DNA from: Gemmatimonadota bacterium
GTDB taxonomy: Bacteria; Latescibacterota; UBA2968
Reading direction: 5' to 3'
Length of the DNA stretch: 44,821 bases
Assembly (NCBI GenBank): GCA_009838845.1
Contig: VXRD01000041.1
Location: 1-44,821 of the forward strand
Numbering within the stretch: position 1 is the first letter of the stretch; each line of letters begins with the position of its first letter. Positions 5,405 to 12,961 of this stretch are shown piece by piece. The position numbers were made by a program, and so were the translations under genes. The notes under the pieces are model-generated. The model made no database searches and was not told the DNA's origin. It saw nothing but the letters and a program-made list of their open reading frames with translations.

Positions 5405-8400
5405 TCACACTTCAACCGGTAACCCGACAAATAACCGACTATACTCATCCGTCAACGGATCGCGCTCGCCCTTTTGCGCTGCGCGGGCAAATACCACACC
5501 CGGCTTTTCCGACCTGCGCGCCCGCGCCAAAACGCCATACCCACCGGGCGCACTTTGCGTTTCCAGATCGCTCTGAATCGCCAGCATCTCCGCCAGCGCA
5601 TTGGCCAACCCCCAGCGCGCACCAATCGCCCGCGCAAAAAGCTCCTCTGGCGTCAGCCCCTCCCTGAAACCGTGCTTCAGGGGCGTAAACCCACCCTGAT
5701 CATTCCGCGTCACGCCCTGGGGAGCCACATAAAGTCTAACCTGTTGCCAATTGGCACGCGCACCACATTCCACCAGAAGCGCGGGAATCCCGAGATCATC
5801 GTCGTCATATTCGCGAAGCTGTGCCAACACAGCCGACACCTCATCGGGATAATCGCGCCAGACATCTGGGTCATCGCCCTCTGGCGGATCGGGACAGTCG
5901 AGCGACGAACCGATAAACGCACTCATCGACGCACCTGTCTTACGCGCGGCATCAAACCCTCTATCCCACAATCGCGCTGCCAGATCCAATGCAGCCTTTG
6001 CGCCATCGCGCGCCATTGCATCTGCCATCCAGTCCATCACCTGATGCTTATCGACAAATAACCCCTTGCGCTCAACCTCATCACCGACAATCTCCGCAAT
6101 CTCCTGCAACCCCTCGTCCGTCATACTCATATACGCCAGACCAAACAGCGCGTCGTGCATCGGGTGTACCTTCTCGCGTGCAATTAGTCCCGGATCCCGA
6201 TTCAGATGCGCTACTGCCGACAGATGCTCTTCAGCCGACCGCTGTCCCTCTTCAGTCACCGGCACAAAAATCGCCACCTGATCGCCGTCAAAATCCATAT
6301 TCATCATCTTGCAAATCGCCACACTCACGCGCACCGCATCATCTGCCACGCGCACCGGACGACACGCCACAAAAGCCATTGGCGAAAACGCGGGATTGCG
6401 AAGCACCACAGTCCATAACTTAGCCATAGCCGCATCCAGAGCTTTCTCTGCTTTTCTCGACCGCCTATCCACTTCTTCAGCCCCCACCTCTCGCGCGGCA
6501 AACGGCCCAAACAACGTCCACGCCATTTCTTCCGGCACACCGACCTGATCGTATCCCAATTCGGGTGCGGGCACAGTCACCGAACGCCCGCTGAACAACG
6601 CGCGCGCCTGAAATTGCAAACGCGACAACTCGCAAAATGCGCGAACCCGCTCAGACAGCGTCTCAACCGCGCGGTCCACCAGCACATCTGGCGCACCATT
6701 GGCAATCATCTCACTCAAGCGGTCATTAGCCTCTCGCAATGCGCGGGGCACATCTCTTCCGCTCACATGTGTCAATGAATGCCCCGGCAACCACGGATGC
6801 GGAACCGGACGCGCAAGCGCGACATCCCCCTCGCGTTTCAACGAAAACTCAACGCCGCGTTCATCCAACGCAACAGCCACCCCACCTTTCGACAAATGCC
6901 CAATTAGCGCATCAAACTGAGGGGACGGCGTAGTGGGAGCAACGGGTCCCGCCACGACGCGATCAGATAGAGTATCGGCATCATCTCGATCCACTGCGCA
7001 CGTATTGAACAAATCGTCAATCACTCCAAAAGCACCCGCTTCTCGCAACGCCAAAAACTCAGTCTCACCCAACCCTTGATCGCGTTGACCCGGCTTTACA
7101 CCCATGTGAATTTTATCTGCAGCCAGATGCAACGTGCGCCCCCAATACACCCACCCTACAGTGGTGCGGCGCGGCAGTGTTTCTCCATTCAGCGTCAGCT
7201 TCTCCATACCATCTTCTACCAACCCATTAGCACTCAAACGAGCGCGTATCTCATCGTCTTTAGGTGCATTGAGCGCGGGAATAATAACCGGCTCTCCTTC
7301 GGCCTTTGCAATGCGTCCGGCCACAGCTTCGCGCAACTGTCCAATATTCAACCGAGACGGCAAACCACACACACTCACAATAAGCTCCACAGACGTACCA
7401 TCCGACAGTTTGGGCATCTGTTCATCTCGCAAAATGCGCGACACCACCCCCTTAAAACCGTGTCGATTGCTCAATTTATCGCCCGGCACAACGCGATTGG
7501 GTAGCATCATCCGGTTCGCGGCCGATTCGCTCATCACAACCGCATCTTCGTGTGTATCACCATTCCACGCCATAAAGGCGGTCAGCAAATTGTACCCCGT
7601 CCAAAAATGCGGATCGCGCGGTTCACACCCCGTTTGCACCAGCGCGGGTTCCGACTCCAGTGTTTTGCCGTCATATTGCGCGTGATACGCGTGCCACAAA
7701 CCCTGCTCATCGCGCTGCATATCGGGGCTTGGCGCACCAATCCACTGCCGCATCATATTCACACCCATCAAAACGCGATTGGTATCATTGTGTTCCAAAA
7801 ACGGAACCACCGAAGCACCTATGCCCAGCCGTTTTTCAGGCGCATCGTCTTCAATCACCAGCTTGCCATCGCGAATCGTCGCCCCCTGAGCCACCTCTAA
7901 AATCCGCGCGAGATTCGGTCCCTCGGGCGTGCAATAAGGACACACGCGCCCATCGTGTGACGGATGATAGCAATTCTCTATCCCCTCATCGGCCTCACCG
8001 ATAATTGGGATCAACGTCACCCGCCGCAAATGAACGCACATATCCTGCAAATTGGTCGCTTGCAAAGACTGTGATGTGGGTTCTTCCATAAAAAATGTGT
8101 GAATCCAATCTCCCAACGGCAACCACGTTTCAACGGCATCTCCCAGCATCTCTGGCATATTTTCCAACCGCTCGGCAATATAATCGCGCAATTGCTCCCC
8201 TACACACCGAATCTCAGCCCGCGCCAAATCCACATCAGTCGGCGCGGGAACCACCGTTAGAAAAAAGCCATCTACCTTAAACCGTCCCCAATCGTCGGAC
8301 TGAGGGATATCTTTGTACACAACCTCTTGTCCCCCCTGAATCGCGAGATGCAATTCACAGGTATATTCATCCACTGACACCACCCGATACCCCGCCAGCG

Positions 8401-8491
8401 ACACCCGATTTGCCAACAATTCGGGCAACCCCTTTTGCACAAACGCATCCCACGAAATTTTATGCCACGGCGCCTTTACTGAAAGACTCAT
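5405..8491 (-). CDS. Compact fused beta-beta' DNA-dependent RNA polymerase catalytic protein
   Basis: A 1,028-residue protein combining the catalytic cores of RpoB and RpoC, normally about 1,340 and 1,400 residues. Beta part: rifampicin-pocket-like region (about 140-161), [12 protein letters not shown] then TPEGPN (176-193), [32 protein letters not shown] (306-322), [12 protein letters not shown] with Lys339 and Lys347, [17 protein letters not shown] and [13 protein letters not shown]. Beta' part: [10 protein letters not shown] (N-terminal match), clamp-helix region (about 580-620), SGRSV (634-638), [20 protein letters not shown] with Asp733, 735 and 737, and [18 protein letters not shown] (942-959, start of the bridge helix). 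The beta flap is missing: only about 15 residues separate SE from GDK. The beta' zinc-binding domain, jaw and canonical trigger loop are also missing. The ATG at 8491 has AGGAGG six bases upstream. It is the last gene of a cluster with an ECF sigma factor and a DksA-like protein. Catalysis is likely but unproven. Confidence 0.9.
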
Positions 8492-12033: not shown

Positions 12034-12961
12034 CGTGCCTCCTCTCCCACGCCCCGCGAATGACGGACCGCATCAAATCGGCATCCGCATCGAAAAGTGC
12101 ATCCAGAACACCTCCGACAACGGGATCCTCTATTATCGTACTCGGCATTTCACCCACAGCAGCGCCTTCGGAAAAGAGTTGGTGCCGGTAAACCTGCGCA
12201 CCCGCAGCCCCCACGACCTCATTCATGCGCATATCCTTTACGTATGGAATCAGGGCTTCTTCGAGCAACCCGGGATCCACACTGTTCAGCAATTCAGCGC
12301 ATTTATTGGCGTCCCCCAGCATAGATAGTGCCCGAAGCCATTCAAACGATACCTTTGACCGGACCTCGGCACTGTCCATAGGCTCTAACGTATCTTCCAC
12401 AGCGCGCTGAAAAGTACCCGGTGTCATAGCGCGTATCAAATGCGTATTAAACCCCTGCCGCTCCGGGTCATAATCAATCAGCCCCGTCAACATCTCTGTA
12501 GGCAGATGCGCCACCACATCTGTCGAATAGCCCGGATTGCCATCTTCATCCATACCCGTTATCGACAGCATATTCTCTGGATCTTCATCCAGAACAACGA
12601 GCGCGGCCTGCGCTTCAACCGTCAAAGTCTGCACCAGTGCCCTGGCATCTTCTTTTTTTCCCTCGCGAAGCAGCTCGCGTATCCGGCCACTCTGCTCTGC
12701 CAATTCCATAAATCCAGTTGACCATTTACCGACGACCAATCGGTCTTCCTGAACCTCAATGGGTTTCACTTCGGGTTCTTCTTCATGAATCTCAGTACCC
12801 GTCAAATGAGATTTGAGACGAATCTTCCCCCTTTCTACTTTGTCCTTACACGTCACGCACAGGCGCGTGTAGGGAACGGCCTTGAGGCGTTCTTCTGAAA
12901 TAACCGCCTCGCAAATGACACACCTCACCCCCGTCCCGCCATCGAGCGGCTGTTGTGTCAT
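12023..12961 (-). CDS. DksA/TraR-type zinc-finger protein with long helical C-terminus
   Basis: A 312-residue protein. Residues 14-38 form a C4 zinc finger (Cys14, 17, 35, 38) with the DksA/TraR pattern C..C...I...RL.A.P....C..C. After a basic/acidic linker come about 250 mostly helical residues (KVSFEWLRALSMLGDANKCA, LLNSVDPGLLEEALIPYV) that I do not recognise. DksA-family proteins bind RNA polymerase through its secondary channel, but there the finger is C-terminal; here it is at the N-terminus, so function cannot be transferred directly. The start at 12961 was chosen for the GGAGGG site five bases upstream; a longer frame to 13081 crosses the promoter. First gene of the cluster that ends in the fused polymerase; stop overlaps the next start by 11 bases. 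Confidence 0.65.
   Translation of the reverse strand: MTQQPLDGGTGVRCVICEAVISEERLKAVPYTRLCVTCKDKVERGKIRLKSHLTGTEIHEEEPEVKPIEVQEDRLVVGKWSTGFMELAEQSGRIRELLREGKKEDARALVQTLTVEAQAALVVLDEDPENMLSITGMDEDGNPGYSTDVVAHLPTEMLTGLIDYDPERQGFNTHLIRAMTPGTFQRAVEDTLEPMDSAEVRSKVSFEWLRALSMLGDANKCAELLNSVDPGLLEEALIPYVKDMRMNEVVGAAGAQVYRHQLFSEGAAVGEMPSTIIEDPVVGGVLDALFDADADLMRSVIRGAWERRHDEQ

Follow-up and report, generated by a model that had tools for sequence, protein, structure and literature searches.

A single-chain chromosomal RNA polymerase encoded beside its own ECF sigma factor: a putative private transcription system in several bacterial phyla

A chromosomal gene for a single-chain RNA polymerase, in which a reduced β and a reduced β′ subunit are fused, was found in several uncultured bacterial lineages, in Latescibacterota and in members of other phyla. 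Because this polymerase always adjoins a sigma factor of its own, belonging to the extracytoplasmic function (ECF) group, and both genes lie behind one conserved promoter, the carriers seem to possess, in addition to the usual RNA polymerase, a private second machinery for transcription. The reading that we favour, with moderate confidence, is a two-gene, self-regulated and private transcription system composed of the ECF sigma and the fused core. The ECF factor is best interpreted as the specificity subunit of the fused polymerase, and three things are inferred: the fused enzyme transcribes DNA, the sigma associates with this core, and together they read the conserved promoter.

The window, by which we mean the whole stretch of 44,821 nucleotides that was analysed, is contig C41 of a 5.75 Mb genome, and all data used here derive from metagenome-assembled genomes. 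On the minus strand and in the order of transcription, it carries nadC, a finger protein gene, a helical protein gene, the ECF sigma gene, an ABC exporter, the fused polymerase and a BlaI/BlaR1-TonB pair (Table 1). Canonical rpoB and rpoC are also present in the same genome, on another contig. A first-pass annotation of the window had described the finger, helical, sigma and polymerase genes as four genes on one strand, served by one shared sigma70-type promoter. Gene calls and Pfam searches agree with it on the common minus strand of the four genes, on the DksA/TraR-type finger, on the overlap of 11 bases between the finger and helical genes, and on the identities of the sigma factor and the polymerase. 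The ABC exporter, which sits between sigma and polymerase, had gone unmentioned. The shared promoter did not hold either; the sigma70-like site at 13059–13031 is not above shuffle expectation, and the helical gene is followed by a terminator hairpin, whose T-run abuts the −35 element of a separate ECF-type promoter.

Table 1. Features of the sigma/polymerase region and its flanks (positions are those of the window)
Feature	Position	Strand	Evidence and remarks
DksA/TraR-type C4 finger protein	12023..12961	−	PF01258, E 1.4e-8
Helical protein	11086..12033	−	All-helical model, pLDDT 86
Intrinsic-terminator-like hairpin and T-run after helical gene	11027..11062	−	−21 kcal/mol, z −4.76; conserved in the genus
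ECF-type promoter, TGAACC-N12-GCGGTGTC	11004..11029	−	−35 TGAAC, −10 GGTGTC; motif kept upstream of ECF genes
ECF sigma factor, start TTG 10981	10388..10981	−	Pfam Sigma70_r2 E 3e-18, Sigma70_r4_2 E 4e-15
ABC exporter, between sigma and polymerase	8507..10369	−	Pfam ABC_membrane, ABC_tran; neighbourhoods
Single-chain fused β/β′ RNA polymerase, 1,028 aa	5405..8491	−	Pfam Rpb2_6 E 5e-39, Rpb1_2 E 1e-14; NCBIfam
Terminator-like hairpin 3′ of polymerase gene	5248..5284	−	16 pairs, T tail; from a consensus scan whose total count of such sites is not above shuffles

Two further loci of the window are worth recording. The BlaI repressor and BlaR1-M56/TonB_C pair lies at 2981–5151, directly downstream of the fused polymerase, and its TonB_C-containing part is repeated in two relatives (L036 and L037). 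At 30855–36539, the window encodes a C25-family peptidase of 1,894 aa with C25 propeptide, CARDB and FlgD-like domains.

The architecture of the polymerase was resolved by profile alignment to RpoB and RpoC of the same genome and of E. coli, together with a PDB profile search, where it matched bacterial β (E 1e-71) and β′ (E 7e-46). One chain holds a reduced β followed by a reduced β′ with the catalytic FDGD. The β blocks kept are the N-terminal start (weakly), CP.TPEG, FLEH..NR, EDA, GDK..RHG and the C-terminus, while the β′ part keeps the clamp helices, SGR, the FDGD motif, the SGAR loop and the bridge-helix region. Missing are most of the β lobe, the flap (E. coli β 824–1055 shrinks to about 3 residues), β′ 1–240 with the zinc and zipper region, and the rudder (310–333). 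No homologue of the trigger loop or jaw was found by profile alignment, which ends at E. coli β′ 789, and the last 50 or so residues show a resemblance to the extreme β′ C-terminus that is weak and not significant. The protein is distinct from the usual pair of separate, full-length β and β′ subunits, which possess a flap, a zinc/zipper region and a trigger loop.

The retention of the clamp helices and the absence of the flap had been proposed in the first-pass annotation, and the alignment to E. coli supports both, with β′ 266–309 aligning to residues 579–622 of the fused polymerase. Comparison with the published sigma interface of the β′ clamp helices (PMC10216364) showed that R278 is kept in 17 of 19 sequences and R281 in 15 of 19, I291 is kept as Leu in all 19, whereas R275, E295 and the neighbouring A302 are changed consistently; such a combination is the pattern expected of a re-specialised interface. 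The AlphaFold model of the polymerase is of moderate quality (pLDDT 74), and its first half matches second-largest RNAP subunits (Z 21, about 240 residues at 2.0 Å). As the structural matches are to chains of the second-largest subunit, extend to about residue 546 and barely cover the β′ half, the β′ assignment rests on sequence profiles. In a viral structure library, only distant RNAP subunits matched the model. A dN/dS of 0.12–0.17 indicates purifying selection on the polymerase, and the protein is a genuine fused β/β′ enzyme beside the normal rpoB/rpoC. Two relatives depart from the DFDGD motif at its first Asp, which is Tyr in L065 and Asn in L073; these are possibly inactive or tolerant variants. 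In an Armatimonadetes assembly (L078), the polymerase gene has one in-frame TAA around 6128, near a conserved block, for which sequencing error, pseudogene and recoding are the candidate readings. Apparently split polymerase genes in L066, L080, L082, L083 and L087 proved to be profile-gap artefacts with continuous reading frames.

Within the class, the fused polymerase was detected in 22 of 47 genomes (E ≤ 1e-30). In addition, G010 carries the first 45 aa of the polymerase at a contig end, which brings the genus to 11 of 11. A scan of 84,980 species genomes yielded 36 loci of the family, distributed over Latescibacterota, Poribacteria, Chloroflexota, Hydrogenedentota, Armatimonadota and one other bacterium, after leaving out L088–L094, which look like canonical rpoB-rpoC. 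All 34 scanned loci that contain the polymerase 5′ end (at least five phyla) have a co-directional ECF gene of one and the same family upstream of it, and so do all class neighbourhoods that hold the 5′ flank of the polymerase. The other two loci are a fragment at a contig start (L086) and a 5′-truncated gene with no ECF nearby (L085). The ECF is immediately upstream of the polymerase, save in some congeners in which an accessory gene separates the two. Comparison of the neighbourhoods across phyla detected no other recurring neighbour of the polymerase and no recurrent anti-sigma gene.

Conversely, every ECF orthologue found (E < 1e-25) lay in a genome with the polymerase or at a contig end, or was a remnant. 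The contig-end cases are G010, with the polymerase fragment alongside, and G022, where the contig stops beside the ECF, whereas G014 and G027 hold decayed ECF pieces. Apart from these, the sigma is absent from genomes lacking the polymerase, as the first-pass annotation would have it. Distance matrices of ECF and polymerase are correlated (Mantel r 0.93, 0 of 5000 permutations), which is to be read as co-inheritance and not as binding, because shared descent contributes to it. The dN/dS of the ECF is 0.07–0.17. One genome bin (G042) contains two ECF-polymerase loci, on contigs C217 and C279. A viral or plasmid origin of the fused polymerase was also considered, and no family member was found in the viral contigs, phages and plasmids searched.

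The gap between sigma and polymerase is without any gene in most loci. The ABC exporter occupies it only in this genome, G002 and G005, and a 396-aa TPR-like protein is found there in at least two other congeners (L037 8160–9350; L084 571–1761). The gap may serve as a site for cargo genes transcribed from the sigma promoter.

Alignment of the regions upstream of the sigma gene revealed a block common to groups whose surrounding DNA is unalignable. Its consensus is TGAACYTT-N10-GCGGTGTC, with TGAAC and GTC invariant in all 24 non-redundant loci. The core pattern TGAAC-N15-GGNGTC is exact in 27 of 30 ECF upstream regions and occurs with no other spacing; the remaining three loci keep TGAAC and GTC and vary within the −10 region. 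Elsewhere, this pattern was matched once in 819,392 strand-bases, and the single exact match of the 26-bp consensus in the 5.75 Mb genome is the ECF’s own site. Rigid spacing is documented for ECF promoters (PMC6411747) and, judged from sequence, the pattern has the form of such a promoter, making the site in the window the apparent autoregulatory site of the sigma/polymerase module. Allowing one mismatch, the genome gave 7 matches versus 5 in the reversed control, and looser searches of six genomes of the genus and six other relatives gave no convincing second promoter target. Candidate targets proposed by the motif were rejected, as near-matches in G000 and 11 relatives were about as numerous as those of reversed-pattern controls and lay inside longer open frames. 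An open frame over a near-match is weak coding evidence, so a weak second target is possible; with no second promoter found, any regulon stays putative.

The sigma factor holds only regions 2 and 4, as do ECF (group 4) sigmas, and its own gene is preceded by an ECF-type promoter with a GAAC-like −35 and rigid spacing. The start of the gene was placed at the TTG, because the GTG at 11008 sits inside the −10 element. An adjacent anti-sigma gene is common, though not universal, for ECF sigmas, and the module ECF has no adjacent cognate one. At the region 4 position equivalent to the flap contact L245 of sigma32, the module ECFs have mostly polar or acidic residues (E7 D5 Q3, n = 20), whereas host ECFs are mostly hydrophobic; the other flap-contact positions are not clearly lost. 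Because of the latter, the altered position is only suggestive of an ECF that pairs with a flap-less core.

Under the private holoenzyme that we favour, the ECF sigma would recognise TGAAC-N15-GGNGTC directly upstream of its own gene and would bring to that promoter the single-chain polymerase encoded downstream in the same operon. Region 2 of the sigma would dock on the retained β′ clamp helices, and region 4 would stay on the −35 DNA, dispensing with its usual contact to the flap. Such a loop would be self-amplifying. The pair would also transcribe the genes that entered the operon, namely the ABC exporter here and the TPR-like protein in relatives, and perhaps unlinked targets exist as well. 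That the clamp helices are the lone sigma dock to survive such a severe reduction supports a private holoenzyme beyond what linkage does. Nonetheless, ECF holoenzymes normally use the β lobe, flap, zipper and zinc region, and since the fused core is devoid of all four, it is not obvious that an open complex of the conventional ECF type can form.

The main rival, which we find rather unlikely, is that the ECF acts through the host core and does no more than turn on the polymerase operon, while the fused polymerase starts transcription in some other way, whether by recognising promoters itself, through another factor or on non-specific templates. A conserved −35 with normal ECF spacing is the kind of signal that a host-core ECF holoenzyme reads, so that the invariant −35 would serve an ECF with the host core equally well. 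The absence of flap, zipper, zinc region and lobe points the same way, and the single-chain YonO transcribes, its discussion calling such domains later refinements (PMC5467207). Yet a mere switch fits less well with an ECF and a polymerase that are never separated and decay jointly, with the selective preservation of the clamp helices among the sigma docks, and with the altered flap-contact position in sigma-4.

A reading that appears improbable to us denies the fused protein the role of promoter-driven DNA-dependent RNA polymerase and takes it to be RNA-acting, a primer or oligonucleotide synthase, or inactive in some lineages. The undetected trigger loop, the variable first catalytic Asp and the lack of target genes found would suit such an activity. 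However, the FDGD, the β GDK..RHG block, the SGAR loop and the bridge-helix region are conserved, YonO transcribes DNA even though it too lacks trigger-loop homology (PMC5467207), and the pairing with a sigma factor is strict.

The finger and helical genes form a unit of their own and are not components of the module, since a terminator and an independent promoter lie between them and the sigma gene, and since they occur unlinked to the polymerase or without it. They form a conserved pair in 34–35 of 47 class genomes, including genomes without polymerase, show no linkage to it in G008 or family f4, and are not beside it in any other phylum. Of the conserved neighbourhood foreseen in the first-pass annotation, the link between sigma and polymerase therefore stood, in every locus with the polymerase 5′ end, and that of the finger and helical genes fell. 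A four-gene module with both proteins as integral cofactors is thereby largely refuted and most improbable, contiguous as the genes are in G013, G019 and most of the genus. The finger gene does carry a C4 zinc finger of DksA/TraR type; its full-length DksA equivalog score is far below the cut-off, and the f4 matches lack the finger region. The fold of the helical protein gave no match in the PDB, and one relative (L144) has a weak match to DUF6178 (E 0.0012).

Bacteria are classically described as having one RNA polymerase core common to all sigma factors, and we are not aware of any second, private transcription machine in a cellular bacterium. Among the freely accessible papers that we searched, none describes the fused-polymerase family. 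The nearest known counterparts include YonO of the Bacillus phage SPbeta and YonO-like proteins, single-chain β/β′ relatives of roughly 100 kDa with no detectable trigger loop (PMC5467207), features shared by the fused polymerase, which is likewise one chain without trigger-loop homology. At profile level, the fused polymerase shows no detectable sequence similarity to YonO (hhalign probability 0.2%, E 0.31). YonO is carried by a phage, and how it recognises promoters was unknown (PMC5467207), whereas the fused polymerase has a chromosomal gene, aligns clearly with bacterial β/β′ and is tied to an ECF of its own. The polymerase of crAss-like phages, as described in PMC7481178, also joins β and β′ in one protein, with no recognisable similarity to cellular β/β′ models according to the same description; the fused polymerase, in contrast, matches cellular models strongly and has no phage relative in the collections searched. 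The nvRNAP of the jumbo phage AR9 with gp226 resembles our module in being a private β/β′-type polymerase with its own promoter-specificity subunit, but has several subunits, is phage-borne and its gp226 has no sequence similarity to sigma (PMC7598289), while the fused polymerase gene is paired with a true ECF sigma gene. Actinomycetes with duplicated rpoB, such as Nonomuraea, also have a second form of RNA polymerase in a bacterial cell, although just β is duplicated, with no fusion and no sigma of its own (PMC5431353). Finally, the module ECF shares with canonical ECFs that use the host core the sigma-2/sigma-4 architecture, a GAAC-type −35 and a rigid spacer (PMC6411747), and differs from them in that its linked gene is a polymerase core and not an anti-sigma factor. 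Fused or single-chain polymerases are known from phages (YonO, crAss) and private specificity subunits from jumbo phages; the present family stands apart in that it is chromosomal, derives clearly from bacterial β/β′ and goes with a true ECF sigma.

It is an even question whether cellular bacteria of several phyla have here a second complete system, with a one-subunit core descended from β/β′, a dedicated sigma and a promoter code unused by the main polymerase. Such a system would be a bacterial counterpart to a T7-like private polymerase, though built from the cellular enzyme and with a sigma working without flap docking. If true, the one-core rule would not hold for bacteria whose chromosome encodes a second core together with a sigma and a promoter of its own. 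Such a core would also represent a natural minimal sigma-dependent polymerase, free of flap, lobe, zipper, rudder or recognised trigger loop, and would reveal which parts of the cellular enzyme sigma-directed initiation can spare. Moreover, it would offer an orthogonal transcription tool made of one polypeptide.
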